Assembly: GCA_028287235.1 (NCBI GenBank)
Contig: JAQBQB010000010.1
Coordinates: 310,001-374,000 of the forward strand
Length of the DNA: 64,000 nucleotides
Reading direction: 5' to 3'
Source: Gemmatimonadota bacterium
Lineage (GTDB): Bacteria; Gemmatimonadota; Gemmatimonadetes; Gemmatimonadales; Gemmatimonadaceae
This document shows, one piece after another, positions 19,469 through 47,850 of this stretch; positions within the stretch are counted from its first letter, which is position 1, and every line of letters starts with the position of its first letter. The position numbers were made by a program, and so were the translations under genes. The notes beneath the pieces were generated by a model, which made no database searches, had not been told where the DNA came from, and saw only the letters and a program-made list of their open reading frames with translations.

Positions 19469-19499
19469 CGAGGCGCCGGCGACTGTCGCCGGCGCCTCG
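19469..19499 (+). terminator. Strong intrinsic terminator-like hairpin
   Basis: A perfect 14-base stem (19469-19482 with 19486-19499) around a 3-base loop, followed on the plus strand by a moderately T-rich TTGGTGTTGTG. It lies between the convergent dehydrogenase and GlsB-like genes and may stop transcription from both sides. Confidence 0.8.
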
Positions 19500-19526
19500 T
19501 TGGTGTTGTGTCCCGCGCGAACGCCG

Positions 19527-19778: not shown

Positions 19779-19987
19779 TTCGAAGCCCCCGATGATGGTG
19801 GTACAACGGGCGCCCGCTGCTGCCGCGCCGGTCTCGACATAGGCAAAGCCCGTACCGGGCTGTACAACGCGGCCCGACTTGGAGATCACGGATTCACTGT
19901 TCGCTTTGTGTCAGATGTGCTGAACCGAATGGCGAACCGGCGCGTGGGCAGCCAACACTTCGGCTTCTCGCACACCCAGGAGCCATC

Positions 19988-20596: not shown

Positions 20597-20682
20597 CGAT
20601 GGAGTCGGCCGATCCGGTTACGGATCGAGTCCCATTGGCTGTTTGACGGCACCGCCTTCAGCGGTTTCTCGGAGGGAAACAT

Positions 20683-20700: not shown

Positions 20701-20766
20701 AGCCTCGTAGGCTGACCCGGCACAATGATCCGTCCTGGTGCCGTTCCCCCACCCCGAGTTGACGCG

Positions 20767-21933: not shown

Positions 21934-21949
21934 CGGCGGCGTCGCGCCG

Positions 21950-23317
21950 GTGAACGACCTCCTGAGAATGGCGGTGCGGCTCGCCGACCCCGCCGACCGC
22001 GCCGCCGCCGCGACGGACCTCGCGCGCGCGCTGGGGGGTGAGACGCTGATCGTGTTCGTACGCGATCCCGAGGTCGGCGTGATGTTGTCCGCGCCTGGCT
22101 TTCCGCAGACGCTCCCGAATGGCCGCGCGTGGCGCGCGTTCTTGAAGGAGTGCCTCGCACGTGGCACGCACAGAGGCGAGCTGCCCGTGACACTCCGCGC
22201 CGCGCCGCTACCGGCGTTCGGCATTTGCGGCAACGACGACTGCGCCCTCGTGCTCCTCGGCGCCAGCGCGCCCGCGACCGATGTTGCGTGGCTCGGCATG
22301 CTCCTGCCGGCGTTGGCCGCCGCCTTTCGCGGGGAGTACGCGGCGCGCCTCGCCAGCGTTCGGCTCAACGCGGCGCAGGAATCGGCGCATCGCGCCGAGC
22401 AGCTCGCGACGGCGCTCAGCGGCATGCGGCAGGACATCCAGGTGGCGCTGATCGAAGCGCAGATGGTGCGCGCGGAGCTCGAGGAGGCGAACCTGCAGCT
22501 GCAGGATCAAGCGACGGAGATGGAAGCCCAGGCGAGCGAGCTGGAGATGCAGGCGGAGGAGCTCTACAAGACGAACACGGAGCTGGAGCGCGCGCGTCAG
22601 GTTGCCGAAGACGCGAACCGCGCCAAGTCGGAGTTCCTCGCGACGATGAGCCACGAGCTGCGCACACCGCTCAACGCGATCTCCGGACACGTGCAACTCT
22701 TGGAGCTCGGCATCTACGGCCCGCTCAACGAGCAGCAGCTCACGGCGCTCCTCCGAGTGGACCGCAGCCAACGGCACCTACTCGGCCTGATCAACGACAT
22801 TCTCAACCTGGCGCGGATCGAGGCGGGGCGTGTGGACTACCACATCGCGCCCGTCGCCATCGCCGACGCGCTCGCCGACATGGCCCCGATGATCGAGCCG
22901 CAGCTCGCCGCGCGGGATCTTCGCTACACGGTCGCCCTCGCCGATCCCAAGCTGTGCGTCGACGCTGACCGCGAGAAGTTGCAGCAGGTATTGCTCAACC
23001 TCCTGTCGAACGCGGTGAAGTTCACGGCGCCGGGCGGCTCGGTGAGCGTGACCTGTACGCAGGAGGTGTCGTCGGTCGCGGCGATTCACGTGACGGACAC
23101 CGGCCGTGGCATTCCGAGCGAAAAGCTCGAGTCCATCTTCGAGCCGTTCGTTCAGGTGGACTCGAGCCACGGCCGCGAGGGCCAGGGCACGGGCCTCGGC
23201 CTGGCGATCAGCCGCGACTTGGCGCGGGGCATGGGCGGCGATCTCGCCGTCACGAGCACGTTCGGGGTCGGCTCGACGTTCACGCTCTCGTTGCGGACGA
23301 CGGCGTCGACCCCCTAG
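21950..23317 (+). CDS. Sensor histidine kinase paired with FIST protein
   Basis: A 455-residue soluble kinase. The first about 150 residues form a GAF-like or divergent sensor region, then a coiled coil full of Glu and Gln (QLQDQATEMEAQASELEMQAEEL, about 180-215), HisKA with His235 (SHELRTPLNAISGHVQLLELG), and an ATPase (NLLSNAVKF, DTGRGIP, GTGLGLAISRDLARGMGG). No receiver or membrane segment is present. The GTG at 21950 stands 16 bases behind the FIST gene; ATG 21968 is an alternative. Its core is close to the other three kinases of the window. Confidence 0.9.
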   Translation: MNDLLRMAVRLADPADRAAAATDLARALGGETLIVFVRDPEVGVMLSAPGFPQTLPNGRAWRAFLKECLARGTHRGELPVTLRAAPLPAFGICGNDDCALVLLGASAPATDVAWLGMLLPALAAAFRGEYAARLASVRLNAAQESAHRAEQLATALSGMRQDIQVALIEAQMVRAELEEANLQLQDQATEMEAQASELEMQAEELYKTNTELERARQVAEDANRAKSEFLATMSHELRTPLNAISGHVQLLELGIYGPLNEQQLTALLRVDRSQRHLLGLINDILNLARIEAGRVDYHIAPVAIADALADMAPMIEPQLAARDLRYTVALADPKLCVDADREKLQQVLLNLLSNAVKFTAPGGSVSVTCTQEVSSVAAIHVTDTGRGIPSEKLESIFEPFVQVDSSHGREGQGTGLGLAISRDLARGMGGDLAVTSTFGVGSTFTLSLRTTASTP

Positions 23318-30745: not shown

Positions 30746-32260
30746 TCAGCCGGAGCGCGGAAGGGCGAGCGTGAAGGTCGATCCGTACCCGATAAAACTT
30801 TCCACCGTGAGGTCGCCCCCCATGGCACGCGCCAGGGCGCGGCTGATCGCCAGCCCCAAACCGATGCCGTCTCTCGTGCGCGTATAGTTGTTGTCCACCT
30901 GGACGAACGGATCGAAGATCGCGTCGACCTTCTCCGGCGGAATCCCGATGCCCGTGTCGCGCACGCCGATGAGCACCTTCGCGCCGCGGCACTCGCATTC
31001 GACCATGATCCGGCCGCCCGGATCGGTGAACTTGGTGGCGTTCGTCAACAGGTTGAGGATCACCTGCTGCAGCTTCTCCTGGTCCGCCCGCACGAGGATC
31101 GACGGGTCGCAGCCCGCGAACGAATAGTGCAGCCCCTTCGACGAGAGCTGCGGCAGCACCAGCGCCTCCGCGCCGCGCAGCGCTTCGCCCACCGGCACGT
31201 CGGCGAGCTCGTACCGCAGTGTGCCCGACTCGACCCGCGCGTAGTTCAGCACCTGGTTGATCAACCCGAGCAGATGGCGCTGGCTGCGCTGAATGCGTTC
31301 GAGCGCCTCCCGCTGGTCGTTCGTCACCGGGCCCTGGATGCCCATGTCGAGCAGCTCGGCGTATCCGCCGATGGCGTTGAGCGGCGTGCGGAGCTCGTGG
31401 CTCATCACCGCGAGAAACTGTCCCTTCGCACGATTCGCCTGTTCCGCGAGCAACCGGGCCTTCTCCGCGTCGGCGGGCGCCGCACGCTCGAGCTCGAGCA
31501 ACCCGTCGCGATTCTCGAGCGCGACGCGAAGCTCCTCTTCACGCGCCCGCAATGCGTCGACGGTGCGCAGCAGCTCGGCCTGCAATCCTTCCCGGCGCGC
31601 CACCTCCGTGGACAGCGACTTGGCGCGCTGCTGCAGCAGCGTGATCTCGACGAGCCGCGCGCCCTCGTCCTGCTCGGCGAACCCCTCCGTCGGGAGGACG
31701 CGCGAGTGCGTTCCACAGATCGCCTGAAAGTCCTCCGAATGCGCGGCGTCGGTGAAATTCCCCATCGCGTACGCGCAGAGCAGCGAAAACTCGTAGTCCG
31801 CGCTCAGCTCGTTCCAGAGACTCTCGAGCCGGATCGCGCCCGCCGGATTGTCGTCCTTCCAGAGCAGATCGACCATCTCGCCGTACGCGAGGATCGCCCC
31901 GCCCGCGGCGAGCGCGCGGCTGCGCTCCACCACGGGAGCGATCGTCGCGCGGAATTTTTCCGCGTCGGGAATGCCGTCGACCATGAATTGGTCGAGCGTC
32001 GCGCGGGCGTCGAGCGCCGTGAGCTGCCCCACCATGCGCGCGCGGTCCACCTTGATCCCGCGGGCTTTCAACGCCTTCGCGAACGCGCGCCGATGCGCCT
32101 CCGTGGCAATGACCACCGCGGCCTGGCCGGCGGTGAGCCCCTGGGCGAGAAAATCGAGTCGCCGCGATCGTCTCGATCGTCTCGCGCCACGCCGGATGTG
32201 TTGATCGCTGTCATGTCCTTTTTTCCATAAGGGCGCGCTGGCCGCATGCCCCCTGTGCAA
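30746..32260 (-). CDS. MEDS-domain sensor histidine kinase (N-terminus uncertain)
   Basis: A kinase of up to 504 residues. From residue about 36 it reads FLAQGLTAGQAAVVIATEAHRRAF, then LAYGEMVDLLWKDDN, ESLWNEL and LLCAYAMGNF: a MEDS domain, a RecA-derived sensory module. A coiled coil follows, then HisKA with His288 (SHELRTPLNAIGGYAELLDMG) and ATPase (NLLTNATKF, DTGIGIP, DGIGLGLAIS). The usual first MEDS strand (HxCxFY) is absent. In this frame the only start is TTG 32260; the well-placed ATG 32214, right behind AAGGAC, is one frame off, and a 9-base duplication lies between. A frameshift at the 5' end is likely. Confidence 0.82.
   Translation of the reverse strand: MHRGHAASAPLWKKGHDSDQHIRRGARRSRRSRRLDFLAQGLTAGQAAVVIATEAHRRAFAKALKARGIKVDRARMVGQLTALDARATLDQFMVDGIPDAEKFRATIAPVVERSRALAAGGAILAYGEMVDLLWKDDNPAGAIRLESLWNELSADYEFSLLCAYAMGNFTDAAHSEDFQAICGTHSRVLPTEGFAEQDEGARLVEITLLQQRAKSLSTEVARREGLQAELLRTVDALRAREEELRVALENRDGLLELERAAPADAEKARLLAEQANRAKGQFLAVMSHELRTPLNAIGGYAELLDMGIQGPVTNDQREALERIQRSQRHLLGLINQVLNYARVESGTLRYELADVPVGEALRGAEALVLPQLSSKGLHYSFAGCDPSILVRADQEKLQQVILNLLTNATKFTDPGGRIMVECECRGAKVLIGVRDTGIGIPPEKVDAIFDPFVQVDNNYTRTRDGIGLGLAISRALARAMGGDLTVESFIGYGSTFTLALPRSG
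32166..32183. repeat. 9-bp tandem duplication at MEDS kinase 5' end
   Basis: GATCGTCTC occurs twice in direct succession (32166-32174, 32175-32183) within the N-terminal coding part of the MEDS kinase gene, exactly where the expected protein sequence is lost. It encodes an Arg/Ser repeat in the annotated frame and Asp/Arg in the frame of ATG 32214. Confidence 0.8.
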
Positions 32261-32386: not shown

Positions 32387-33142
32387 GTGCCCATCGATCT
32401 CACCAGATTCGGACTCGGCGAGATGCTGCGCTGCTGCCTGGAGATCCGCCGCGTGGCCCGTAACGAGCCGACGATGGAAGCGACGGCACGCCGCGTCTGC
32501 GGCTTCTTTTACGATGAGCTGACCACCCCGGAAGGAGCCCGCGCCTGCGCGCTCGTCCGCTGCTACAAGACGCACGCCTACGGACACCTGCCCGACGATC
32601 TCCGCCGGTTCGCCAAGCGCGCGCTTCGGTCGAACGAGGCGGAGGTCGAGCTCACCGATTCCATGCGCTGCCTCACCCTGCTCGCAACCGTCGGTGACGA
32701 CCCGAGTTGGAACGAGCGCCATCTGTCCAAGGGGCACCAGGCCGTTCCTCTTCCCAGCCCGCAGATCGTGCAGCGTGCGCCGATGATCGCGCAGCTCATT
32801 CACGAATTCGGACTCGCCCTGAGCGACGTGGTGCAACCCTCCCCCGACGTCATGCGCAAGCTCGAGGGCAAGACGTACGGCGTGTTTCACGTCGCGGAGG
32901 CGAGCGGAAGTCCCTACATCCCGGCGCAGGCCCAATTCGTCGAGCGCCACGCCATTCGGTCCGTGCTCGGCTTCGGCGGCTCGCTCGCGGGCGGCGATCT
33001 CTTCGCCGTCATCCTCTTTACACGCACGCTCATCTCGAACGACATCGCCGACCGCTTTCGTACGGTCGCGCTCGACGTAAAGGGGTGCCTCGTACCATTT
33101 GCCGAGGATGAAGTGTTCGAGCCAGGGCCCACCGCGCGCTAG
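32387..33142 (+). CDS. Unknown sensory module protein, first gene of chemosensory cluster
   Basis: A 251-residue soluble protein. Family text seen: PIDLTRFGLGEMLRCC, ARRVCGFFYDEL, ACALVRCYKTHAYGHL, MRCLTLLATVGDDPSWNERHLSKGHQAVPLPS, VFHVAEASGSPYIPAQAQFVERHAIRSVLGFGG and GDLFAVILFTRTLI. From memory this region occurs fused in front of PAS or GAF domains in histidine kinases, so it is probably a GAF-like input domain; the ligand is unknown. The GTG at 32387 has GGAG nine bases ahead. It is followed by cheY at 33228 on the same strand, and a candidate operator lies upstream. Confidence 0.8.
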   Translation: MPIDLTRFGLGEMLRCCLEIRRVARNEPTMEATARRVCGFFYDELTTPEGARACALVRCYKTHAYGHLPDDLRRFAKRALRSNEAEVELTDSMRCLTLLATVGDDPSWNERHLSKGHQAVPLPSPQIVQRAPMIAQLIHEFGLALSDVVQPSPDVMRKLEGKTYGVFHVAEASGSPYIPAQAQFVERHAIRSVLGFGGSLAGGDLFAVILFTRTLISNDIADRFRTVALDVKGCLVPFAEDEVFEPGPTAR

Positions 33143-33227
33143 ATGACGCAGCCCCTCCCGATTCTCTATCCGGCACCGTTCGCGCCGGATAGATTGCGCC
33201 TTGAATGACTCGCCATCCGTGCCGCCG

Positions 33228-33605
33228 ATGAAAAAGGTACTCGTCGTTGATGACTCCGCTACGATGCGGCGAATGATCATCGCGTCGCTGACCACGATCG
33301 GCGAGGTGAGCTTCGATCAGGCCGTGAGCGGCCTCGAAGCGATCGAGCGTGTCACGCTCGCGCCGGTCGATCTCGTCATGCTCGACCTCAACATGCCCGA
33401 CGTACACGGGCTCGAGGTGCTCCGCTTCATCCGCGGCCACGGCGCGCTGCGCGACCTCCCGGTCGTCGTGCTCACGACCCGCGGCGACGACGACAGCCGC
33501 GCCGCGGCGCTGCGCGAAGGCGCCACGCTGTACCTGACGAAGCCGTTCGCTCCGGCCTCCGTCGTGGCGCAAGTTCGGCCGCTGCTCGCGGCAACACGAA
33601 CGTGA
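33228..33605 (+). CDS. CheY-like response regulator
   Basis: A 125-residue stand-alone receiver. Acidic pair in VLVVDDSATMR, phospho-acceptor Asp53 in VMLDLNMPD, Thr in VVLTTRGDDD and Lys in YLTKPF are all present; no output domain. ATG 33228 gives the ordinary start; TTG 33201 and GTG 33219 are alternatives. Its stop overlaps the GTG start of cheA by four bases (GTGA), so the two are co-translated and it is a likely phospho-acceptor of CheA. Confidence 0.93.
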   Translation: MKKVLVVDDSATMRRMIIASLTTIGEVSFDQAVSGLEAIERVTLAPVDLVMLDLNMPDVHGLEVLRFIRGHGALRDLPVVVLTTRGDDDSRAAALREGATLYLTKPFAPASVVAQVRPLLAATRT

Positions 33606-35635
33606 GCGCCGACGGCGGCGGCGGCGGAAGCCAGTTCTTCGAGGAGTTCATCGACGACTACTTCTCCGAGTGCGACGAGCATCTGGCCACGGTCCGACGA
33701 ATTCTCCTCGCGCTCGAGACCGCGGCCGGCGAGCCGCCCGACGCCACCCGGTTGCAGGAGCTGTCGCGCGCGCTGCACACGCTCAAAGGTCTCTCCGGCA
33801 TGGTGGGGCTCTCCTCCGCGGAAGAGGTCGCGCACGCGATGGAGGACGCCGTCCGCGCACTCCAGGGCGAGACGAGCGCGCCGGCCGAGCTGCTCGAGGC
33901 ACTGTTCAGCGGCGAATCGCTGCTCGAAGCCTGCGTCACCTCGCGCCGCGACGGAACTGCTCCGCCGTCGCCGGGCCCGTACGTCGATCGCGTGCGCGAC
34001 GTGCTCCGTCTCCTCGAGGAGGAATCGACCGAAGCGAGCATGCAAGCCCGTGAATCGGTCGGCCTGCAAGCGGTGGGAACGAGCTCGCACAGCTTCGAGT
34101 TCGTGCCCTCCGCCGAGCTCGCGGCGCGCGGCGTCGGCGTCGAGATGATTCGGCAGCGCCTGCTCTCCCTTGGCGAGATCACCTCCACCATTCCGCGCGT
34201 ACGGCAGACGGGCGGGGTCGTGTTCGAGTTCACCGTCTCGGTCCGCGACGGTGTGGCGCCGATCGACGCTTGGCGTGCCGATGGACTGTCGTGGGAGCCG
34301 TGGCTCCCCGAATCGGCCGGGCCCGTCGGCATGGTCGTTCACGCCTCGCGACCGGCGTCGGCGCCGATCGCCGCCACGGCCTCCAACGTCGTGCGCGTCG
34401 ATCTCGCGCGCCTCGATGACCTCATGCGCATGGTCGGCGAGCTCGTCGTGAGCCGTGCGCGGCTCGGCGAATCGGTGACACGCGCGAGCGGCGGCATGAC
34501 GCCGAACGCCTGGGAAGACTTGAACGAGGCGAACGAGACGATCGAGCGGCAGCTGCGCGCGATTCGCGAAGGAGTGATGCGGATTCGCCTCGTGCCCATC
34601 GGCGAGGTGTTCGAGCGCATGCGCTTCGCGATGCGCGACATCGCGCGCGAAACGGGAAAGGCCATCCATCTCGAGTTCTCGGGACAGGATACCGAGATCG
34701 ACAAGCTCGTCGTCGATCGCATGCTCGAGCCGCTGCTCCACCTCGTTCGCAACTCGGCGAGCCACGGCATCGAATCGCGCGCCGACCGCATCGCCGCCGG
34801 CAAGCCGGGCGAAGGCACCATCTCGCTGCGCGCTCGTGCCGCCGGTGACCGCATCGTGCTCGAGGTCGAAGACGACGGCGCGGGAATCGACGTGCACCGC
34901 GTCGGCCGCCGCGCACGCGAGATGGGCCTCGTCACCACCGCCGAGGCACTCGCTCCCGACGCGCTCCTCGACGTGATCTGCTCGCCCGGCTTCTCCACGC
35001 GCGAGACGGCCGACATGGCGAGCGGCCGCGGCGTCGGCATGACGGTCGTGCGCACCACGATCCGCAGTCTGGGCGGCGAGCTGTTCGTCGACTCCGTCCT
35101 CGGACACGGCACGCGCTTCACGATCGAGCTGCCGCTCACGCTCATGATCACCGACGCGCTGATTCTCGAGATCGGCGATCAGGCCATGGCGATTCCGCAG
35201 ATTGTCCTGCGCGAGATTTTGCCGCTCGACCCCGCGGCCGTCACGCGCTTCGAGAACAACGAGGTGCTCACCTATCGCGGACGCGTGGTGCCGCTCGTGA
35301 ACCTCGGCGCGCTCTTCAACTTTCCGTCGCGGCCCGGCGTGGCGCGGCACGTGTTGATCGTCGGCAGCGACCTGCATCTCGCGGGGCTGGTCGTCGATCG
35401 CGTCCTCGGGCTGCGCGAGATCGTCGTCCACCCGGTGGCCGACCCGCTCATCGCCGTACCCGGCGTGGCCGGCGCCACGGAGTTGGCCGACGGCCGCGTC
35501 AGCCTCATCCTCGATGCGGCGGCGCTCGTGCGCGGCACGCGCGATCGCGGCGCGCGCGCTGCCCTGCGCACCTTGCAGCCGGGCGCGCCGAACGTCGCGG
35601 GCGCGCTGACCACACCGGAGCACTTATGGGCGTAA
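33602..35635 (+). CDS. cheA: Chemotaxis histidine kinase CheA
   Basis: A 677-residue CheA. P1 HPt domain at about 10-130 with His59 in LSRALHTLKGLSGM; a P2-like region (about 165-220, IRQRLLSLGEIT); P3 dimerisation (VRVDLARLDDLMRMVGELVVSRARL); P4 ATPase (HLVRNSASHGIESRADR, EDDGAGID, GRGVGMTVVRTTIRSLGG); P5 CheW-like C-terminus (LILEIGDQAMAIPQIVL, YRGRVVPLVNLG). It autophosphorylates on His59 and passes phosphate to the receivers CheY and CheB. It overlaps cheY (4 bases) and cheW (10 bases) and is the core of the cluster. Confidence 0.96.
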   Translation: MSADGGGGGSQFFEEFIDDYFSECDEHLATVRRILLALETAAGEPPDATRLQELSRALHTLKGLSGMVGLSSAEEVAHAMEDAVRALQGETSAPAELLEALFSGESLLEACVTSRRDGTAPPSPGPYVDRVRDVLRLLEEESTEASMQARESVGLQAVGTSSHSFEFVPSAELAARGVGVEMIRQRLLSLGEITSTIPRVRQTGGVVFEFTVSVRDGVAPIDAWRADGLSWEPWLPESAGPVGMVVHASRPASAPIAATASNVVRVDLARLDDLMRMVGELVVSRARLGESVTRASGGMTPNAWEDLNEANETIERQLRAIREGVMRIRLVPIGEVFERMRFAMRDIARETGKAIHLEFSGQDTEIDKLVVDRMLEPLLHLVRNSASHGIESRADRIAAGKPGEGTISLRARAAGDRIVLEVEDDGAGIDVHRVGRRAREMGLVTTAEALAPDALLDVICSPGFSTRETADMASGRGVGMTVVRTTIRSLGGELFVDSVLGHGTRFTIELPLTLMITDALILEIGDQAMAIPQIVLREILPLDPAAVTRFENNEVLTYRGRVVPLVNLGALFNFPSRPGVARHVLIVGSDLHLAGLVVDRVLGLREIVVHPVADPLIAVPGVAGATELADGRVSLILDAAALVRGTRDRGARAALRTLQPGAPNVAGALTTPEHLWA

Positions 35636-36129
35636 ATGCGAGCGGCGCCGAGTCGTACGTGCTGTGCGAGCTGGCGGGCACGACGTACGCGCTGCGCAGC
35701 GACGACATCGAACAACTCGAAATGGTGGGACAGCTCACTCCCGTGCCGAACGCGCCGGCGTTCGTCGACGGCGTGACGTCGGTGCGCGGCCGCGTGATTC
35801 CCGCCATCAGTCTCCGCGCGCGCTTCGGCTTCGAGCGTCAGCCGCACGATCTCCGCAGCCGACTGGTGATCGTACGCGCCGAGGGGCGCGCCGTAGGCCT
35901 GATCGTCGACAACGCACGTGAGTTCGCGGCCATTCCGGAGGCCACGATTCATCCGCCGCCCGACGGGCTCTCCGAGCTGAGCAGCCGCTATCTCCGCGGC
36001 ATGGCGCAGCTCGGCGAGCGATTGGTGCTCATTCTCGACGTCGCTGAACTGTTGCGCGTCACGGAGGCGCCGTCTCCGTCGCTCGCCGCGGCCGCGCTTT
36101 CCGCCGAAATTCTACCGTCGATCGTATAA
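35626..36129 (+). CDS. cheW: CheW adaptor protein
   Basis: A 167-residue CheW-like SH3-pair protein that docks CheA to receptors. Tracts seen: [52 protein letters not shown] and [21 protein letters not shown]. It begins 10 bases before the end of cheA, giving strict co-translation, and the MCP gene follows 17 bases behind. One adaptor only is seen in the cluster. Confidence 0.94.
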
Positions 36130-36146
36130 CGACTCGAGGATCCAGC

Positions 36147-38192
36147 ATGCGCAACCCATTCGGAAAATCCAACGGCTCGGCGAACGGCAGTGCGGTGATG
36201 CACGCCGACGCCGGACGCATCGCCTCGACCGCCAACACCGTCGCCGATCAATGTGCCGCGATCATGCGCGGCAGCGAAGCGCAGATGTCCGTCATCGAGA
36301 GCGCGATCGTCACGGCGACCGAGGTGTCGCATTCGCTCCGCCAGACGGCCGACCAAGCCGACTCGGTCTCGACGTCGGGCGAAGAGCTCGCGTCGTCGGT
36401 CAACGAGCTCGCCGCGTCGATCGAGCAGATCGCGGCCGGCACGACGAGCCTCGCGACGTCCATCGCCGAAACGGCCGCGTCGGTCGAGGAGTCGAGTCGG
36501 TCGATCAACACAGTCGCCGGCACGGCGCGCACGATGAGCACCGCGGCGAACGAGGTCGCGACGGGCATGGTCGAGATGACGTCGTCGGTCCAGGAGGTGA
36601 CGCGCGAGGGTGAATCGCTCGCCACGTCAGTCGTGCAGGTCGCGTCGGCGGTGGAGCAGATGGCGCGCTCGATCGACGCCGTGCGCGGAAATGCCGACGA
36701 GCTCGCGGCTGCCGCGGAGGAAACGTCGGGCTCGATCAACAGCATGGCGGCGTCGATCGAGCAAGTCGGCGCGAGCGCCGAGAACATGGCGGGGCTCATC
36801 GAGGAGGTTGCCACCTCGATCGAGGAGACCGCGCGCTCGGTCGACAGCGTCGCGCAGAACGCCGAAACGATCACGAAGTCCATCGACAACGCCGCGACCA
36901 CCGCCACCGAGCTCGATCGCTCGATCCGCGGCGCGGCGCTCATCGTCGGCGAAGCGAACGACATCGCCAAGCGCGTGGCGCGCGACGCGGAAGAAGGCGG
37001 CCAGGCCGTCGACCGCTCGATCGAAGGGCTGTCGCGCGTGCGCGAATCCATGGCGCAGTCGGCGGTGGTCGTGAAGGAAGTCGGCAAGCGCGCCGAAGAC
37101 ATCACGACGATCGTCGACACCATCAACCTCATCGCGGAACGGACCAACCTCCTCTCGCTGAATGCGTCGATCGAAGCGGCGCGCGCCGGTGAAGCCGGCC
37201 GCGGCTTCGCCGTCGTCGCCGAGGAGATCCGCAACCTCGCCGACCGCTCGGCCAAGGCGACGGCGGACATCGCCGCGATCATCAAGGCGTTGCAGAACGT
37301 GGTGCAGGAAGCGGTGTCGTCGTCGTCGGAGGGACAGCGCGTCGCCGAGGAGAGCGGCCGGTTGGCTGCCGACGGCGCGGCGGGCCTGCGCCGCATTCTG
37401 GCCGGCATCGCGCAGACGTCGACCAAGGTGGAGCAGATCGCGCGGGCCAGCGACGAGCAGTTGGCGGCGGGGCAGAACGTCGTCACGGTCATCACCGCGG
37501 CGGCGAACCAGGCCAAGCAGGTTTCCGCCGGCACCGCCGAACAGTCGAAGGCGCTGCAGGGATTGGTGCGGACGACCGCACAGATGCGAGCTGTCGCACA
37601 ACAGGTGACCCAGGCGATGAACGACCAGGGCCGGTCCTCGCGCGAGATCATCAAGGCGGGCCAGAACAGCGCGAGCCTCGCCGGCCAGGTGCGCCGCGCG
37701 ATGAACGAGCAGGCCTCGTCGGCGACGCAGATCAGCGGCGCGATCGACTCGGTGCGGCGTGGCTCGTTGGCCACGGCGCGCGCGCTGGCCGAGCAGGCGA
37801 CGGCGGGCGAACAGATCAGCGCCGGCGCGGCGGGACTCACGAAGATGATCGCCACCGTCAGCTCGGCGATGGCCGAGCAGGCCACTGCGATGTCGCAGAT
37901 CTCCGCGGCCACCGACACGATTCGACGGCAGACCGATCAGACGAACAAGGGCATGGCCGAGCAGTCCCGCGCCGCGGGAGACCTGACCACCGCCACGCGC
38001 AACATCGCCACGCAGGTGGTGCTCATCACCCGCGCCAACAAGGAGCAGTCCGAGGCGACGGCCTCGCTCGCGCAGAGCCTCAGCGAAGCGCAGCGGCTGG
38101 GACTGAGCGCTGCACAGGGCGCGCGTGACACGGGGCTACTGACGCAACAGCTGGCGGAGCGCGCACGGTCGCTCGGACAGGGCGCAAGCTGA
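36147..38192 (+). CDS. Cytoplasmic methyl-accepting chemotaxis protein (no ligand domain)
   Basis: A 681-residue receptor that is predicted coiled coil from end to end. The signalling tip [35 protein letters not shown] is at about 330-370, with Gln/Glu-rich methylation-type helices on both sides. There is no membrane helix, no signal peptide and no ligand-binding domain, as in the soluble Frz receptor of Myxococcus (known family analogy). Both flanks are unusually long and Ser/Ala-rich, with many repeated SIEQIA- and SVEES-like heptads. It must receive input through partners; the PAS-HEAT protein immediately downstream is a candidate. Confidence 0.93.
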
Positions 38193-38199
38193 GACGTTC

Positions 38200-40935
38200 G
38201 TGATGCGCCGCCCCCAATCCGTTGGAGTGTTCACCACCGATCGCGCGCTCGTGGTGCAGTCGTGGGACGCGTGGATCGCGCAAGCGACCGGCATCCCCGA
38301 GTCCGCGGCGGCAGGACAGCCGCTGTCGCATCTGTATCCCGAGCTCGCCGAGCGCGGCTTGTTGGCGCGGCTGCGTCGCGTGGCCGAGGGCTCCGGCGTG
38401 GACGTGCTCGCGCCGGCGTTTCACAAGTATCTGCTTCCCTGCCCGCCGCGCGACCGCACGTCCCGCTTCGAGCGGATGCGCCAGCACGTGACCATGGCGC
38501 CGCTGCGGAATCACGACGGCGTCGCCGGCGTGATCGTGACGATCGAGGACGTCACCGAGCGCTTCGACCGCGAGCGCCGGCTCGCCGCCGATCTCGACAG
38601 TCACGACGAAAGCGTTCGCCTGCGCGCCGCGAAGTCGCTCGCCGCGGGTGGCGAATCGCCGGCCCTCCTCGCCAACGCGCTCACCGACGCGAGCTGGCGC
38701 GTGCGCCGCGTCGCGGCCGAGGCCATGGCCGAGGGCGGCGGCCGCGAAGTTACTGAAACGCTCATCGAGGCGCTTCGCGAGCATCACCGCAATCCGGCGC
38801 TGCTCAACGCGGCGCTCACCGCGCTCACGCGGAGCCGCGCGGACGTCGTCTCGATGGTCGTTCCGCTGCTCGACACGCACGACGCCGAAGTTCGCACGTA
38901 CGCCGCCCTGGCGCTCGGGTTGATGGACGACTCGCGCGCCGTGCCCGCGCTGATCGCCCATCTCGGCGACGACGACGTCAATGTGCGTTTCCACGTCATC
39001 GAAGCCCTGGGGCGCATCGGAGACCGCGACGCGGCGGACGCGATCGCGACCGTCGCCGAGTCGGGCGATTTCTTTCTTGCGTTCGCGGCGCTCGACGCGC
39101 TTGCCGCCATCGGCGAGCCGCACGTCGCTGCCCGGCTCCTGCCGCTCCTCGACGACGAGATGCTCCTACCGGCGACTGCCGCCTGCCTCGGCGCGATCGG
39201 CGCGGAAGACGTTGCCATTCCGCTCGCGCGCCTCACGGCGGATGACAGAATCCCGGTCGCGCCCATCGCCCTCGCGCTCGCCGACGTGCACGACCGCATG
39301 GAATCGGAGTTCGGCGAAGGCGCGCTCATTGCCGACTTCGCGCGCAGCGTGATGACGGCCGATTCGGCCCGTTTCATGATCGCGGCGCTGCCGGACGCGA
39401 GCGTCGAAGAGCTGCGCGGGCTGGTGATCGTGCTGTCCTGGTTGCCCTTCGAGGGCATCGATCGCGCGCTCGCGCAGTTGCTCACCCACGATGCCGTGCG
39501 GTCAATCGTGGCCGACCGAATCGCCGGGCGGGGCGTTGCCGCCGCCGCGCACATCGAGGAAGCCGCGCGCGACGCGGCGGACGACGTGCGCAAAGCCGCG
39601 GCCTTCGCGCTCGGCCGCATCGGCTGCAGCGCGTCCGTCCCCACGCTCGTCGCGTGGTTGCACGAACACGAGCCCGACGTCGTCATCGCCGTGGCTGGCG
39701 CACTCGGTGCGATTGGCGACCGCCGCGCGTTTACTCCGCTGCTCGCCGTGCTGGATCATCCCGAAGCGGCGGTGCGCCAAGCTGCCGTCTCGGCGCTCAA
39801 CTCGATCGGCCACCCGCAGATGGAGATGACCGTCGCCGGCCGCTTGAGCGATGACTCGCCGCGCGTACGCGAGTCGGCGGCGCGGATCGCCGGCTACTTC
39901 GGCTATGCCTCGTGTCTCCGTCGGATGGTCGAGCTGTGCGACGATCCCGACCCGGTCGTGCGCCGCGCATGTGTGGAGTCGCTCGCGAACTACGATCAAC
40001 GGCCCGCGTGGTCCAAGATCCACGAGACCGTCACATCCGATTCGGACGCCACCGTGCGCGCCGCCGCGACGCGTGCGCTTGGACAATCGGCGTCGGACGA
40101 TTCGCTGCGCACGCTCGTGACCGCGGCGCGCGACCCCAACCTCTGGGTGCGCTATTTTGCCGCCCGCGCGATGAGCCGCCGCGGCACCGCACATGCCGAT
40201 GTCCTCACCGCGCTGGCCGAGTGCGCCACGCGCGATCAAGCCGTACCCGTGCGCATCGCGGCGATCGAAGCGCTCGGCGCATTGCGCGCGTCCACGATGC
40301 TCTGCGTGCTGCTCCCCCTCGTGCGCGATCCCGAGACCGGCGTCGCGTGCGCGACGATCGCCACGCTCGGCGACTTCGACACCGGGGAAACGCGTGCCGC
40401 GCTCGCCTTTGCCTTGAGTGAAGACGAAGTGGCGCGGCAGCGCGCGGCGCTCGACGCGGTGGGCCGACAGCGCGCCGAGCACGCGGTCGACGCGGTCCAG
40501 GCGATCGCGCGAGCGACGCGTGACTCGGTGTTGCGCGCGCATGCCGTGCAGACGCTCGCGGCGATCGGCAACACGGCAGCCATTCATGCGCTCACCACGT
40601 TGGGCACCGACCGGCGCCTGCGCGAGCTCGTCGTCGCGGCACTCGCCGGCCTGACCGAAGAGCAGGTCCCCGCGCTGCGAGACGAGATGACGACCGCTGT
40701 CGAGACCGTGCGCGAGCTGGTGGTCGAAGCATTTGGCCGAATGAAGCATTCGGCCGCGGGCCGCTGTCTGGCGGGTGCGCTCGACGATCCGTCGGCGGCC
40801 GTTCGTCTCGCCGCCGCGCGCGCCCTCGGCCGGCTCGACCTCCGCGATGCCCGATCGCAGCTCGCCGCGCTGGCGCGCACCGACGAGAGCCCGGCGGTAC
40901 GCCTGGCCGCACGAGACGCTCTGGCGAGAGGCTGA
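38200..40935 (+). CDS. PAS-HEAT repeat protein of chemosensory cluster
   Basis: A 911-residue soluble protein. Residues about 5-125 are a PAS-like domain (GVFTTDRALVVQSWDAWIAQATG; GVIVTIEDVTERFDRERRL). The rest, about 780 residues, is more than twenty HEAT/PBS-lyase-type repeats such as VRLRAAKSLAAGG, VRRVAAEAMAEGG and VRQAAVSALNSIG, forming a superhelical scaffold. The PAS closely resembles that of the histidine kinase at 43924. It starts at GTG 38200 (ATG 38203 is equally possible), 7 bases behind the MCP gene, and overlaps cheR by one base. It is probably a sensory scaffold linking inputs to the MCP; function not established. Confidence 0.88.
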   Translation: MMRRPQSVGVFTTDRALVVQSWDAWIAQATGIPESAAAGQPLSHLYPELAERGLLARLRRVAEGSGVDVLAPAFHKYLLPCPPRDRTSRFERMRQHVTMAPLRNHDGVAGVIVTIEDVTERFDRERRLAADLDSHDESVRLRAAKSLAAGGESPALLANALTDASWRVRRVAAEAMAEGGGREVTETLIEALREHHRNPALLNAALTALTRSRADVVSMVVPLLDTHDAEVRTYAALALGLMDDSRAVPALIAHLGDDDVNVRFHVIEALGRIGDRDAADAIATVAESGDFFLAFAALDALAAIGEPHVAARLLPLLDDEMLLPATAACLGAIGAEDVAIPLARLTADDRIPVAPIALALADVHDRMESEFGEGALIADFARSVMTADSARFMIAALPDASVEELRGLVIVLSWLPFEGIDRALAQLLTHDAVRSIVADRIAGRGVAAAAHIEEAARDAADDVRKAAAFALGRIGCSASVPTLVAWLHEHEPDVVIAVAGALGAIGDRRAFTPLLAVLDHPEAAVRQAAVSALNSIGHPQMEMTVAGRLSDDSPRVRESAARIAGYFGYASCLRRMVELCDDPDPVVRRACVESLANYDQRPAWSKIHETVTSDSDATVRAAATRALGQSASDDSLRTLVTAARDPNLWVRYFAARAMSRRGTAHADVLTALAECATRDQAVPVRIAAIEALGALRASTMLCVLLPLVRDPETGVACATIATLGDFDTGETRAALAFALSEDEVARQRAALDAVGRQRAEHAVDAVQAIARATRDSVLRAHAVQTLAAIGNTAAIHALTTLGTDRRLRELVVAALAGLTEEQVPALRDEMTTAVETVRELVVEAFGRMKHSAAGRCLAGALDDPSAAVRLAAARALGRLDLRDARSQLAALARTDESPAVRLAARDALARG

Positions 40936-41879
40936 TGGCCGGCGGCGGCGGAGACAGGATGCAATCGCTCGGCTATGGCACCGAGCTTTTCTCGCTGGCC
41001 GACGCGCCGTACGCGCTGCTGCGCGATCTCATCGCGCAGCACACTGGTGTGTTGTTCGACGAATCGAAGCGCGGACTCATGGCCGACAAGCTCTCGGAGC
41101 TCGTCACCGCGAACGGCCTGACGTCCTTTCTCGATTACTACTACCTGCTGCGCTACGACGACCAGGCCGACGCGCACTGGTCGGCGCTGATGAATCGCCT
41201 CGCGGTGCCCGAGACATTTTTTTGGCGGCAGCCCGATCAGGTTCATGCGTTGGCCAACGTCGTGGCACCCGCGCATTTCACCAACCATCCGCGCCGGCCC
41301 CTGCGCATCTGGAGCGCCGCATGCTGCACCGGCGAGGAGCCGGTGAGCATCGCGATCGCGCTGGCCGAGGCAGGCCTGCTCAACAAGTATCCGATCGAGA
41401 TCCTCGCGACCGACGGCAGCGCCGCGATGGTCGAGCGCGCCCGGAACGGACTGTATGGCGACCGGTCGTTTCGACAGCTGCCCGAGGCGCTCAAGGCGAG
41501 GTACTTCCAGCCCGACGGCGACCGGTGGCGCCCGATCGAGCGCGTGCATCGCGGCATCCACTGGGGCGTGGTCAATCTCGCGCGCGCCGCGGAGATGGAG
41601 CCCTTCGCCACGGCCGACGTGATTTTCTGCCGGAACGTCTTCATCTACTTCTCCGATGACGCCATTCGCCGTACCGTGCGCGTCTTCTCGGAGCACATGC
41701 CGCACGATGGCTACCTTTTCCTCGGTGCGTCGGAGTCGTTGACGCGGCTGAACGTCGACCTCGAGCTGGCGGAGATCGGCAACGCATTCGCATACGTGAA
41801 AGAAGGACGGCGCCAGATCGCGGAGCAGGCGCGAACGTCGGCATTCCAGGCAACGGTTGCGCGCGACGCAGCCCCTTAG
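40935..41879 (+). CDS. cheR: Chemotaxis methyltransferase CheR
   Basis: A 314-residue CheR: small helical N-domain (LLRDLIAQHTGVLFDESKRGLMADKLSEL), a VPETFFWRQPDQ motif, and a SAM-binding domain (RIWSAACCTGEEPVSIAIALAE; DVIFCRNVFIYFSDDAIRRTV; LFLGASESL). It methylates Glu side chains of the receptor. The ATG at 40935 shares one base with the preceding TGA. No TPR or other extra domain is present. Confidence 0.95.
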   Translation: MAGGGGDRMQSLGYGTELFSLADAPYALLRDLIAQHTGVLFDESKRGLMADKLSELVTANGLTSFLDYYYLLRYDDQADAHWSALMNRLAVPETFFWRQPDQVHALANVVAPAHFTNHPRRPLRIWSAACCTGEEPVSIAIALAEAGLLNKYPIEILATDGSAAMVERARNGLYGDRSFRQLPEALKARYFQPDGDRWRPIERVHRGIHWGVVNLARAAEMEPFATADVIFCRNVFIYFSDDAIRRTVRVFSEHMPHDGYLFLGASESLTRLNVDLELAEIGNAFAYVKEGRRQIAEQARTSAFQATVARDAAP

Positions 41880-41891
41880 CGGCATGACTAC

Positions 41892-42950
41892 ATGACTCGG
41901 TTGATTCGCGTGCTCGTCGTCGACGACTCCGCCTTCGTGCGAAAGATCGTCACGCAAATGTTGTCTCGAAGTCCGTTCATCGAAGTCGTCGGCTCGGCGC
42001 GCGACGGCGGCGAGGCGCTCGAGATGTGCGAGCGGCTCCGCCCCGACGTCGTGACGCTCGACCTGGTGATGCCCGGCATCGACGGCCTCGAGTTCCTGCG
42101 GCGACAGATGGCGACCCACCCCATTCCAGTGGTGGTCTGCAGCATCAGCCACGAATCTGGCGCCGCCGCGCTCGAGGCGTTCGAGCTCGGGGCTGTGGAG
42201 TTCGTGCAGAAGCCGACGGCGCTGGCTACCGATCGCGTGTTCGAGATCGCCGAAGAGCTGCTAGCGAAGGTCAAGGCGGCCGCGGCGGTGAACATGCCCG
42301 CACGCGGGCCCGACGAGACCACGGCGCCGGTCGCCGCGCCGCGCGCCAAAGCGGGCGCCGCCCCGCCCGTCGTCGCCGGCCAGACCGACATCGTGGTCAT
42401 CGGAATCTCCACCGGCGGCCCGCAAGCGCTTCGCCACGTCATCCCCCGCTTTGCCGCCGACTTTCCCGTGCCCATCGCGGTCGTGCTGCACATGCCCGTT
42501 GGCTACACCGAGATGTATGCGCAGCGGTTGAACGACATCTCGGGGCTGGACGTGGTGGAGGCGCACGATGGCGATTTGATCAGGCCCGGGGCTATGTTTC
42601 TCGCTCCGGCGGGCCGCCACTTGGCGTTCGCGCGGGCCGGCGATGGAGCTGTCCATGCACATCTCGATCTACGGCCGTTCGACACGCCGCACCGGCCCGC
42701 GGTCGACGTGCTCTTTCGTTCCGCCGCGGAGGTTTACGGATCCCGCGTGCTCGGCGTCGTGATGACGGGCATGGGAACCGACGGGCTCGTGGGGGCGGCG
42801 CACATCAAGGCAAAGGGAGGACGTATTCTGACGGAAGCCGAATCGTCATGCGTCGTGTACGGCATGCCCCGCGCAGTCGTCGAGGCATGTCTCAGCGATC
42901 GCGTCGCCACGCTCAACGACATGGCGTCGAGCATCATGGAGATGGTCTGA
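41892..42950 (+). CDS. cheB: Chemotaxis methylesterase/glutamine deamidase CheB
   Basis: A 352-residue CheB: receiver domain (VLVVDDSAFVRK, Asp57 in LDLVMPG, EFVQKPT) and C-terminal esterase (VIGISTGGPQALRHVIP with the catalytic Ser, LHMPVGYTEMYAQRLN with His, GVVMTGMGTDG with Asp). Phosphorylation by CheA activates demethylation of the receptor. It lies 12 bases behind cheR and one base ahead of the second cheY. Confidence 0.96.
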   Translation: MTRLIRVLVVDDSAFVRKIVTQMLSRSPFIEVVGSARDGGEALEMCERLRPDVVTLDLVMPGIDGLEFLRRQMATHPIPVVVCSISHESGAAALEAFELGAVEFVQKPTALATDRVFEIAEELLAKVKAAAAVNMPARGPDETTAPVAAPRAKAGAAPPVVAGQTDIVVIGISTGGPQALRHVIPRFAADFPVPIAVVLHMPVGYTEMYAQRLNDISGLDVVEAHDGDLIRPGAMFLAPAGRHLAFARAGDGAVHAHLDLRPFDTPHRPAVDVLFRSAAEVYGSRVLGVVMTGMGTDGLVGAAHIKAKGGRILTEAESSCVVYGMPRAVVEACLSDRVATLNDMASSIMEMV

Positions 42951-42951
42951 C

Positions 42952-43317
42952 ATGGCGAAGATCATGATCGTCGACGACTCGGCCTACGCCCGTCGGGTGC
43001 ATCGCGCCATCCTCGAACGCGCCGGCCACGTCGTCGTCGAAGCTGCGACCGGCACCAGCGCCATCGAGTCGTTCTCGCTCGACCATCCCGACGCCGTGCT
43101 CCTGGACCTGTCGATGGAGGACATCGGCGGGCTCGACGTGCTGCGCACGCTTCGGGAGCTCGACCCGGCGGCGCGGGTGATCGTCGTCAGCGCGGACGTT
43201 CAGCGGAGCACGGAACAGGCGGCGCTCACCGGCGGGGCGCAGCGTTTTCTCGCGAAACCGGCCGGCGCCGACCAGCTCGTGGCCGCGGTGACCCAAGTTC
43301 TGGCACTGGTCCAGTGA
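42952..43317 (+). CDS. Second CheY-like response regulator
   Basis: A 121-residue receiver: IMIVDDSAYARR, phospho-acceptor Asp52 in LLDLSMEDIGG, and a Lys in RFLAKPAG. The Pro that normally follows the acceptor loop (MP) is replaced by Glu (MED), which is unusual and could alter phosphotransfer or dephosphorylation. It overlaps the CheC gene (GTGA). Confidence 0.92.
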   Translation: MAKIMIVDDSAYARRVHRAILERAGHVVVEAATGTSAIESFSLDHPDAVLLDLSMEDIGGLDVLRTLRELDPAARVIVVSADVQRSTEQAALTGGAQRFLAKPAGADQLVAAVTQVLALVQ

Positions 43318-43922
43318 ACCTCGACGAGTTCGAGACCGACGCGCTGGCGGAGCTATTCAACGTCGGACTGCATCGCGCGGCTGCATCGCTGTCGGAGATC
43401 ACCGGCCAGCGCATCGGCGTCGACATGCCGCGGCTGGTGATCTGTCCGATCACCGAGATCGAGGTGGAGCTCACCGGACTCCTCGGGGGTGAGATCGCCA
43501 CCGTGCATCAAATGTTCGGCGGGGCCGTGGCCGGCGACGCCGTGCTCCTGCTCGAACAGGACAAGGCCGCCGCCCTCGCCAAGCTCATGACCGCCGGCGA
43601 AGCGGGCCTCGGCGGACGGCTCGACCAGTCGGCGCGCGAAGTGCTCGCCGAGATCGGCAACATCGTCCTTGGAGCCTGCCTGAGCGGCTTCGGCGACATG
43701 CTGCAAACACCCGTCTCCTTCTCGGTGCCGCGCATTCACATCGAGTCGCTCAAGAACATCCTGCGCTCCCTCCGCATCGATTCCGAGGAAGTGCAGTACG
43801 CAGTCATCGCCGCCACACAGTTCCGGATGAGCGAGCTCGCGGTCGACGGCTATCTCGTCGTCGCCGTCGGCGCCAAATCGCTCGCCCGCATCTCGCAAGT
43901 GCTCGCCGATCGGATTCCTTGA
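43314..43922 (+). CDS. cheC: CheC-like phosphatase
   Basis: A 202-residue CheC. Two active-site stretches with conserved Glu and Asn are seen: ELFNVGLHRAAASLSEIT near the N-terminus and AEIGNIVLGACLSGFGDML in the middle, so both sites look intact. CheC removes phosphate from CheY-P. No CheD gene, its usual activator, occurs in the cluster. The GTG start lies within the stop of the second cheY, so the phosphatase is co-translated with its probable substrate. Confidence 0.93.
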   Translation: MNLDEFETDALAELFNVGLHRAAASLSEITGQRIGVDMPRLVICPITEIEVELTGLLGGEIATVHQMFGGAVAGDAVLLLEQDKAAALAKLMTAGEAGLGGRLDQSAREVLAEIGNIVLGACLSGFGDMLQTPVSFSVPRIHIESLKNILRSLRIDSEEVQYAVIAATQFRMSELAVDGYLVVAVGAKSLARISQVLADRIP

Positions 43923-43923
43923 G

Positions 43924-45075
43924 ATGAGCGAGCGTCGGATCCGCTTCAGCGACGCGCAAGCGCCGATGCTGCGCGAGATCGGCGATGTGCTCGACGTGGG
44001 CGTGCTCAGCGTCGACGAAGCGCTCGTGATCACCGGCTGGAATCGCTGGCTCGAGACGGCCACCGGCAAGCGCGCCGCCGGCGTCATCGGCAAACCGCTG
44101 GCCGTCGTCGAGCCCAATCTTCGGCCGGCGGCTCGCAACGCATTCGAGCAGGCGGTGCACGGCTCGACCGTGGTCCTGTCGCACCGGCTCCATGGCTACC
44201 TGCTCGACATCCCGCCCGCGAGCGGCATCGACGGCTTTCGGCGCATGCAGCAGAGCGTACGGATTCTGCCGCTGCACTCGGATGACGGCGCGACGCGCGG
44301 CGCCGTGGCCATCATCCAGGACGTCACCGAGCGTGTGGTCCGCGAGGAGGAGCTCCGCGTGGCGATGGAGGCCGCGCAGTCGGCCAACCAGGCGAAATCG
44401 AGCTTTCTCGCCGCCATGAGCCACGAGCTCCGAACGCCGATCGGCGCCATGTCGGGCTACGCCGATCTGCTGGGCGACGGTATCTTCGGGCCGGTATCCG
44501 ACACGCAGCGCGCGCAGCTCGTGAGGATCAAGACCGTGGGCCGACACCTCCTCGACATCGTCGAGGAGATTCTCGCCTTCGCGCGCATCGAAGCGGGCCG
44601 CGAGGAAGCGCACCTCGCCGACGCTGACGCGGTCGCCATCGCGCGCGAAGCGCTGGTCGCCGTCGAGCCGCTCGTCGGCAGGAAGGGACTCGGGCTTCGG
44701 GCGGACTTGCCGTCGTCGCCGATCCACATGCGCACCGACGCGGTCAAGGTGCGCCAGATCCTGATCAACCTCCTCGGCAACGCGGTGAAGTTCACCGACG
44801 CGGGGCAAATCTCGGTGCGCGTGTGCGCCGCGCCCGACGGCGCGACGGTCGACTTCGTCATCGCCGACACCGGCCCTGGAATTTCCGAGTCCGACATTCG
44901 GCGAATCTTCGAGCCCTTCGTCCAGGCGAGCGGATCGTTCGCGCGCACGCACGAGGGCACCGGCCTCGGGCTGTCGGTGAGTCGCAAGCTCGCACGGCTG
45001 CTCGGCGGAGACATCTCGGTCACGAGCAAAACGGGCACCGGCTCCGTGTTCACGGCGAGCCTCCCGGCGCGCTGA
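43924..45075 (+). CDS. PAS sensor histidine kinase, last gene of chemosensory cluster
   Basis: A 383-residue kinase: PAS (about 15-135, with VLSVDEALVITGWNRWLETATG and VAIIQDVTERV), HisKA with His167 (SHELRTPIGAMSGYADLLGDG), and ATPase (NLLGNAVKF, DTGPGIS, GTGLGLSVSRKLARLLGG). It starts one base after the CheC stop. Its PAS resembles the one in the PAS-HEAT protein and its core matches the other kinases of the window. It may cross-talk with the cluster's stand-alone receivers. It converges on the PQQ-type gene. Confidence 0.92.
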   Translation: MSERRIRFSDAQAPMLREIGDVLDVGVLSVDEALVITGWNRWLETATGKRAAGVIGKPLAVVEPNLRPAARNAFEQAVHGSTVVLSHRLHGYLLDIPPASGIDGFRRMQQSVRILPLHSDDGATRGAVAIIQDVTERVVREEELRVAMEAAQSANQAKSSFLAAMSHELRTPIGAMSGYADLLGDGIFGPVSDTQRAQLVRIKTVGRHLLDIVEEILAFARIEAGREEAHLADADAVAIAREALVAVEPLVGRKGLGLRADLPSSPIHMRTDAVKVRQILINLLGNAVKFTDAGQISVRVCAAPDGATVDFVIADTGPGISESDIRRIFEPFVQASGSFARTHEGTGLGLSVSRKLARLLGGDISVTSKTGTGSVFTASLPAR

Positions 45076-46677: not shown

Positions 46678-46779
46678 GGTTACCCCGGCGATGGTTTGCG
46701 GTCAGCCGTGCACCGCGGGCCGCCGCATATGCCATACCGGGGGTTTACCGCACCGGTCCTTTCCGTGTTGATTTCAGGG

Positions 46780-47850
46780 ATGACCCGCTACCTCATCTAC
46801 TCCGAAGGCCAGTTCGGAACCCCCGCGTCCAAGACCGGGAACTCCGTCATTCGCTACTCCGCCGAGCATGTCGCCGCCGTTCTCGACAGCCGTCTCGCGG
46901 GCAAAACTGTCGGCGACGTACTCGGGTATGGCGGTGACATTCCCGTCGTCGGCTCGATCGAGGAAGGCATTGCGCGCGGCGCCGACGCCCTCCTCGTTGG
47001 CATCGCCGTGCACGGCGGCGGCTTCGGACCGGAATTGCGAACGGCCATTCACAAGTCGATCGGCCTCGGCCTCGACGTCTGGAACGGTTTGCACGGCTTC
47101 GTCGGCGACGATCCCGAGCTCGCGGCCCTCGCCGCGGCGCGCGGGGTCACACTACACGACTTGCGTCGACCGCCTGCCGATCTCCCCGTGGGCACGGGCC
47201 TCGTGCGCCATCTCGACGCGACCGTCGTGCTCGCCGTGGGCAGCGACGCGAACATCGGCAAGATGACGGTCATGCTGCAGTTGCGCGCCGCGCTACGCGA
47301 CCGCGGCACCCGCGTCGCCTTCGCGCCCACCGGGCAGACCGGAATCTTCATCGACGGCTGGGGTATCTGCGTCGACGCCGTCGTCGCCGATTTCATCGCC
47401 GGCGCCGCGGAGACGCTCACCATCCAAGCGGCGCGCGACGCCGACATCGTGCTCGTCGAAGGCCAGGGCTCCATTCTCCACCCGGGCTACTCCGGCGTCT
47501 CGCTCGGCCTGCTGCATGGCAGCCTGCCGCATGCGCTGATCGCCTGCCACCAGCCCACGCGAAAGACTTTTCGCCACAACGCGTGGCTTCCGGTACCGCC
47601 AATCGCCGACGTCATCGCGCTGCACGAGGCCATCGCCAAGCCGTTGCGCCCCGCGCGCACGATCGGCGTGTCGTTGAATACATCCGAAATGTCCGATCGC
47701 GACGCACGCGCCGAGATCGCGCGCATCGCCGAGGAAACCGGCTTGCCGACGACCGACCCGGTTCGCTTCGACATCACGCCCCTGGCCGAAGCGGTGCAGG
47801 CGTTCGACGCCGAGCGCCGCGGCGCGGCGCCCGCGACGTCGCCGGCGTGA
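46780..47850 (+). CDS. DUF1611 family P-loop protein
   Basis: A 356-residue protein with an N-terminal Rossmann-like half (LIYSEGQFGTPASKTGNSVIRYS, LLVGIAVHGGGFGPELR) and a C-terminal P-loop half (AVGSDANIGKMTVMLQLRAALR, APTGQTGIFIDGWG, LVEGQGSILHPGYSG). Some members of this family act in D-glutamate catabolism (DgcN) as N-acetyltransferases; I cannot tell whether this one does. ATG 46780 is chosen from the family N-terminus. It overlaps the SCO-like gene by one base. Confidence 0.9.
   Translation: MTRYLIYSEGQFGTPASKTGNSVIRYSAEHVAAVLDSRLAGKTVGDVLGYGGDIPVVGSIEEGIARGADALLVGIAVHGGGFGPELRTAIHKSIGLGLDVWNGLHGFVGDDPELAALAAARGVTLHDLRRPPADLPVGTGLVRHLDATVVLAVGSDANIGKMTVMLQLRAALRDRGTRVAFAPTGQTGIFIDGWGICVDAVVADFIAGAAETLTIQAARDADIVLVEGQGSILHPGYSGVSLGLLHGSLPHALIACHQPTRKTFRHNAWLPVPPIADVIALHEAIAKPLRPARTIGVSLNTSEMSDRDARAEIARIAEETGLPTTDPVRFDITPLAEAVQAFDAERRGAAPATSPA

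Follow-up and report, generated by a model that had tools for sequence, protein, structure and literature searches.

For most chemosensory systems that do not serve motility, the output is unknown. In Myxococcus xanthus, the Che7 system, which has received little study, couples aggregation with sporulation (PMC9040617; PMC11514114) and works with a HEAT protein (PMC9040617), and Cpc7, a binding partner of CheY7, regulates development during stress (PMC11514114). The published Che7 locus tags are 6965 (CheY7), 6964 (CheA7), 6963 (CheW7), 6962 (Mcp7), 6960 (CheR7), and 6959 (CheB7) (PMC3945109). The Che3 cluster of Rhodospirillum centenum (CheA3-CheS3-CheY3) combines a PAS histidine kinase with a stand-alone CheY, as does the cluster described here, and has a non-motility output, cyst formation (PMC3868531). 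A HEAT protein acting beside a Che system is also found in the haloarchaeal che region with the HEAT_PBS protein OE2401F and CheF (PMC2666748), but that system is archaeal, couples to the archaeal flagellum, and has no PAS. A myxobacterial aerotaxis cluster (PMC6194562) was considered and set aside as a different system, concerning a PAS-globin MCP.

The window analyzed here (the whole stretch of 64,000 nucleotides; G000:C23:310001-374000) belongs to a 5.7-Mb genome from the family of Gemmatirosa (Gemmatimonadaceae). Ten genes lie on the + strand between 33228 and 45075 in the order CheY1-CheA-CheW-soluble MCP-PAS-HEAT-CheR-CheB-CheY2-CheC-PAS kinase (Table 1), and the expected Pfam domains were confirmed for all of them. 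From CheY1 to the kinase, the intergenic distances are -4, -10, 17, 7, -1, 12, 1, -4, and 1 bases, so that the overlaps and short gaps noticed originally extend across all ten genes and range from -10 to +17 bases. The run ends at a convergent gene for a PQQ enzyme. No sigma-70-like site was found upstream of CheY1 in a promoter scan, and a cheD was likewise not seen among the cluster genes.

Table 1. The ten genes of the chemosensory cluster, with coordinates in the window and the evidence for each assignment.
Feature	Coordinates	Strand	Evidence and remarks
CheY1, single-domain response regulator	33228..33605	+	Pfam Response_reg; ATG start, TTG at 33201 as alternative
CheA	33602..35635	+	Pfam Hpt/H-kinase_dim/HATPase_c/CheW; motifs; clade of 11 cluster CheAs
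CheW adaptor	35626..36129	+	Pfam; 43-78% identity across all clusters
Soluble MCP, 681 aa	36147..38192	+	Pfam MCPsignal
PAS-HEAT protein	38200..40935	+	Pfam PAS and about a dozen HEAT_2 stretches; AlphaFold2 model; syntenic homologues in three phyla
CheR methyltransferase	40935..41879	+	Pfam CheR, CheR_N
CheB methylesterase with receiver	41892..42950	+	Pfam; above NCBIfam cut-off for NF001965
CheY2, second single-domain response regulator	42952..43317	+	Pfam receiver
CheC-type CheY-P phosphatase (predicted)	43314..43922	+	Pfam CheX above cut-off, CheC slightly below
PAS-HisKA-HATPase soluble histidine kinase	43924..45075	+	Pfam; PAS of the PAS-HEAT subfamily

The original prediction had described an eleven-gene cluster; all eleven genes exist on the + strand at the coordinates given there, ten of them as in Table 1, but the first one (32387-33142) lies outside the system. 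It was rejected as an operon member because its family, present in 20 of 179 Gemmatimonadaceae genomes at 43-65% identity, is unlinked to the cluster in related genomes. In the genome G213, the homologue is on contig C33 and the che cluster on C4, and no homologue stands beside the cluster in the other cluster-bearing genomes. The product (~250 aa) has no Pfam match and is apparently a stand-alone sensory module; the start at 32387 is well chosen, because homologues begin near codon 48.

The first seven genes follow the order of M. xanthus Che7, CheY-CheA-CheW-MCP-[6961]-CheR-CheB, in which 6961 is absent from the published table and falls exactly where the PAS-HEAT gene stands here; from its place, MXAN_6961 is probably the HEAT gene, Cpc7. 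CheY1 is the positional counterpart of CheY7, both CheAs consist of Hpt, dimerisation, HATPase, and CheW domains with no receiver, and neither CheR carries a TPR. At the 3' end, the cluster here has an extra CheY2, CheC, and PAS kinase. No counterpart of the che7 desaturase Des7 was seen in the present cluster. Like the MCP here, Mcp7 has no membrane or HAMP domain (PMC3945109), at a length of 821 aa compared with 681. Both systems have a HEAT-repeat partner, which is encoded within the cluster here (PMC9040617; PMC11514114); however, Cpc7 is described with 27 helices and without mention of a PAS domain (PMC11514114), whereas the PAS-HEAT protein has 50 helices, a solenoid of roughly double the length, and a fused PAS. 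Judged by published gene order and domain content, the cluster thus appears to be Che7-like. The original proposal of the cluster as the best candidate for an undescribed system holds only in part, because Che7 has already been published with the same gene order. What is new relative to Che7 is the fusion of PAS to a HEAT solenoid of ~25 repeats, the matching PAS of the kinase, the CheY2-CheC branch, and the spread across phyla. In the part of the literature that was covered, we found no published description of such a cluster outside Myxococcus.

Each cluster protein was compared by tblastn with the loci retrieved via the PAS-HEAT gene. The same order was sought in Gemmatimonadota and is present in two further Gemmatimonadaceae genera, with all ten genes in identical order in G213 (contig C4) and in Gemmatirosa kalamazoonensis. 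In the latter, the cluster sits on a 1.04-Mb plasmid (NZ_CP007130.1), and it was found in no other member of the plasmid collection. A genome-wide scan with three PAS-HEAT queries recovered a Chloroflexi MAG and two Oscillatoria, and searches by phylum yielded five more Cyanobacteria and two more Chloroflexota. The ten-gene order also occurs in two Chloroflexota genomes, and a third Chloroflexota MAG and Cyanobacteria share the first seven genes (CheY1 to CheB). Rather than being confined to one strain, the order is shared by Gemmatimonadaceae, Chloroflexota, and Cyanobacteria, and since it is kept beyond the source strain, we consider the cluster real. It was detected in at least 3 of 395 Gemmatimonadota, at least 6 of 292 Cyanobacteria, and at least 3 of 400 Chloroflexota, all lower bounds, with few candidates scored per genome. 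Several hosts are MAGs, in which gene absences are soft.

In all loci found in Chloroflexota and Cyanobacteria, the PAS-HEAT gene (HEAT alone in the genome G904) lies between MCP and CheR, and CheY1-CheA-CheW precede MCP-HEAT wherever the contig extends that far. Leaving aside one locus on a short contig (L036), CheB comes after CheR in every case but Oscillatoria PCC 10802, which has the CheY2-CheC-kinase genes between the two. The invariant core is CheY1-CheA-CheW-MCP-HEAT-CheR-CheB, with CheY1 first in every complete cluster (52-74% identity). The CheY2-CheC-PAS kinase segment follows CheB in Gemmatimonadota and two Chloroflexota, shows some rearrangement or duplication in two Cyanobacteria, and lacks part of its genes in the three Cyanobacteria with the longest HEAT protein; CheY2 is kept in the ten-gene clusters and absent from three cyanobacterial ones. 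Because CheY2 and the kinase are dispensable and the core is kept, CheY1 and HEAT form an obligate pair.

Phylogenetic analysis of CheA kinase cores placed those of 11 clusters from three phyla on one side of a branch with support of 100/99, apart from 11 Gemmatimonadota CheA paralogues, among them the separate flagellar CheA of the source genome, which is encoded on contig C1 not far from FlhA. Within the Gemmatimonadota sample, a cluster-type CheA was present only where the HEAT protein was present, plus one contig-end fragment. The MCP, CheR, CheB, and HEAT trees agree in 5-7 of 7 splits; for the CheA tree the figure falls to 1-3 of 7, perhaps partly due to a masked Oscillatoria CheA. A concatenated tree grouped the Gemmatimonadota together and the Cyanobacteria together (100 each), with Chloroflexota scattered. 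The agreement of the trees and the concatenated tree indicate that the cluster travels as a unit, and some horizontal transfer has probably occurred.

The original description of the MCP as having no membrane or ligand domain was borne out, with no hydrophobic segment and nothing besides the coiled coil. Its tip is at residue 331 of 681, flanked by arms of 330 and 334 residues with one proline, and homologues in the other clusters are almost equally symmetrical; two cyanobacterial MCPs begin with one N-terminal hydrophobic (membrane) segment. The nearest solved structure by sequence is the Thermotoga maritima MCP 2ch7, which is also soluble, but the arms of the present MCP are far longer. CheA consists of an Hpt domain with HTLKG at residue 59, a P2-like linker, and the dimerisation, HATPase, and CheW domains.

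The PAS-HEAT protein comprises a PAS domain (residues 8-117) and, in the AlphaFold2 model (pLDDT 89.4), ~25 HEAT repeats forming 50 helices (137-910), with the most conserved solenoid blocks at residues ~190-310 and ~500-570. PDB matches to PAS plus HEAT were only a designed alphaRep, the CpcE lyase, and generic HEAT proteins, and were dismissed; likewise, an NblB/CpcE identity from NCBIfam is weak, below cut-off, and reflects only PBS-type HEAT repeats. A fold search with the PAS domain returned a generic PAS and did not name a ligand, because heme FixL, LOV, and unliganded PAS structures are about equally similar. A profile of this PAS matches, in each cluster kinase tested, the first PAS (1e-16 to 1e-32; E=5e-24 for the kinase in the window), and no other match at E<10 was found in the window or in the two other che loci of the genome. 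The PAS domains of the HEAT protein and the kinase thus form one subfamily in every tested cluster having both. In G904, the HEAT protein lacks PAS, the kinase keeps it, and the remaining cluster is intact, which indicates that PAS input is a property of the whole system and is not obligate in the HEAT protein.

The ten genes, which are inherited together with their order kept, encode a complete MCP-CheW-CheA array core, CheR, CheB, two CheYs, CheC, PAS-HEAT, and a PAS kinase. We interpret them as a Che7-type chemosensory system that is cytoplasmic and self-contained, with a CheY1-HEAT output and a kinase-CheY2-CheC branch, a reading to which we assign a probability of roughly 0.6; the broader statement that this is a non-motility system of the Che7 type is highly probable. 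The soluble coiled-coil receptor would form a cytoplasmic array and set CheA activity, with methylation by CheR and CheB adapting the array. CheA would phosphorylate CheY1, which may bind the HEAT solenoid of PAS-HEAT as CheY7 binds Cpc7, and the PAS-HEAT protein would be an effector or scaffold of the pathway, gated through its PAS by an internal signal, which could be redox, O2, light, or a small molecule.

The original prediction let signals enter through the PAS, HEAT, and GAF-like proteins. Sensing by PAS is indeed likely, but the GAF-like protein is the product of the excluded first gene, and HEAT is likelier to be a CheY target than an input, because CheY7 binds Cpc7 in M. xanthus (PMC11514114). 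The persistence of CheY1 and HEAT where CheY2 and the kinase are missing agrees with HEAT as the CheY1 target, and by analogy we lean slightly towards CheY1-HEAT being the main output. A different role for the PAS-HEAT protein would be that of a soluble input sensor, binding a ligand by its PAS, lying with its solenoid along the coiled coil of the MCP, and so giving the MCP the sensing part it lacks; CheY1 would then act on an unlinked target. The MCP has no sensory domain of its own, in every complete cluster its gene stands immediately before that of PAS-HEAT, PAS domains are classic sensors, and the conserved solenoid blocks could be a docking surface; yet the otherwise intact G904 cluster, with its PAS-less HEAT protein, shows that sensing is not an obligate role of that protein, and we consider the input role a less probable one. 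Far less credible is that the cluster is a mobile, degenerate acquisition without function in its hosts. Its patchy distribution (3 of 395 Gemmatimonadota, with absence from three near-complete congeners) and its megaplasmid location in Gemmatirosa would fit such an origin, but all ten frames are open with intact catalytic motifs in three Gemmatimonadaceae genera, between which the proteins keep 50-73% identity and the order is maintained.

Turning to the output of the proposed CheY1-HEAT pathway, the window contains no flagellar or pilus gene, as had been noted, and FlhA and PilT are encoded elsewhere in the source genome. A flagellar (F-class) system was rejected because FlhA is missing in 11 of 13 host genomes and contig C1 of the source genome carries a separate CheA for the flagellum. 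PilT scored above the curated cut-off in 9 of 12 hosts tested, namely all Gemmatimonadota and cyanobacterial ones, and three Chloroflexota hosts have neither PilT above cut-off nor FlhA. These absences make a swimming output unlikely and indicate that a pilus output is not general, although PilT leaves room for an effect on type IV pili in the nine hosts that have it. An accessory motility pathway that biases type IV pili (or flagella where present), in the manner of cyanobacterial phototaxis or Pil-Chp, would be in keeping with PilT in all tested Gemmatimonadota and Cyanobacteria and with the flagella of the source genome and Gemmatirosa; it is nevertheless improbable given the three cluster-bearing Chloroflexota, the lack of FlhA in G213, and the separate flagellar CheA paralogue. 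The output is thus probably not motility, and our best guess, by analogy, is a stress or developmental response. Conserved flanking genes that might hint at the output were not found, as neighbors differ from genome to genome and include M20 peptidase, MalT-like TPR/LuxR protein, and rhodanese/beta-lactamase genes.

Within the 3' segment, the CheY2 gene overlaps the CheC gene that follows it by four bases. Aligned to T. maritima CheC (2f9z/1xkr), the nearest solved CheC by sequence, the protein retains both E-x2-N active sites; compared with the consensus [D/S]-x3-E-x2-N-x22-P, they read DALAELFN...P and EVLAEIGN...P, the first residue of site 2 being E instead of D/S. On account of the gene overlap and the two active sites, CheC most simply resets CheY2, with CheY1 as the alternative. 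The PAS kinase has an intact H-box (HELRTP, at residue 167), an intact ATP site, and no receiver. With its sister PAS, it might read the same cue as PAS-HEAT and feed CheY2, which CheC would reset. We put forward this kinase-CheY2-CheC branch tentatively, at somewhat less than even odds. The merging of two-component and chemosensory signaling suggested originally is compatible with the linked kinase and the common PAS subfamily. For R. centenum Che3, signaling from a kinase to a stand-alone CheY of the same Che cluster is proven (PMC3868531), which sets a precedent, but CheS3 belongs to the HWE kinases and has two receivers, whereas the window kinase has none; CheA3 carries a receiver, and Che3 has no HEAT protein.

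The CheY-HEAT pair in three phyla (four counting the published M. xanthus order) suggests that HEAT as a CheY target is a general output and not a Myxococcus oddity, and the simple, soluble proteins found here make this idea testable. Through the common PAS, kinase and chemosensory array are linked to a single internal cue. By spanning phyla and pointing to a testable output, the cluster is of more interest than an ordinary che cluster, without being categorically new. More speculatively, and with rather low confidence, it could represent a cross-phylum class in which CheY-P from a soluble array and a PAS-read internal cue converge on a giant PAS-HEAT scaffold as the output. The linked kinase, through its matching PAS, would signal to a second CheY, and the array and the two-component pathway would thereby meet on a common cue.

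Several variants and neighbors were also recorded. Oscillatoria PCC 10802 (L037:2629-3644, 14192-20679) carries two tandem CheY1, two CheC, and three CheY2-like genes in one cluster, and in two Chloroflexota (L035:3420-4196; L057:15622-16398), CheY1 makes up the latter half of a protein with two receivers. Three cyanobacterial HEAT proteins (L049, L050, L051) have ~170 extra solenoid residues beside PAS, which resemble an internal duplication. A congener carries a cluster-type CheY1-CheA pair cut by a contig end (L059, G375:C31:1-4690), and PAS-HEAT was not found in its 79% complete assembly. In the window, an intact DUF1611 gene with both N- and C-terminal domains lies at 46696-47850. On the upstream side, the excluded first gene is divergent from a MEDS-domain histidine kinase gene (30746-32260), and genes for a FIST-domain protein and, after it, a soluble histidine kinase lie at 20725-23317. 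The FIST-linked and MEDS-domain kinases are thus two further soluble sensor kinases ~13 kb or less upstream of the che operon, and their kinase cores resemble that of the cluster kinase.
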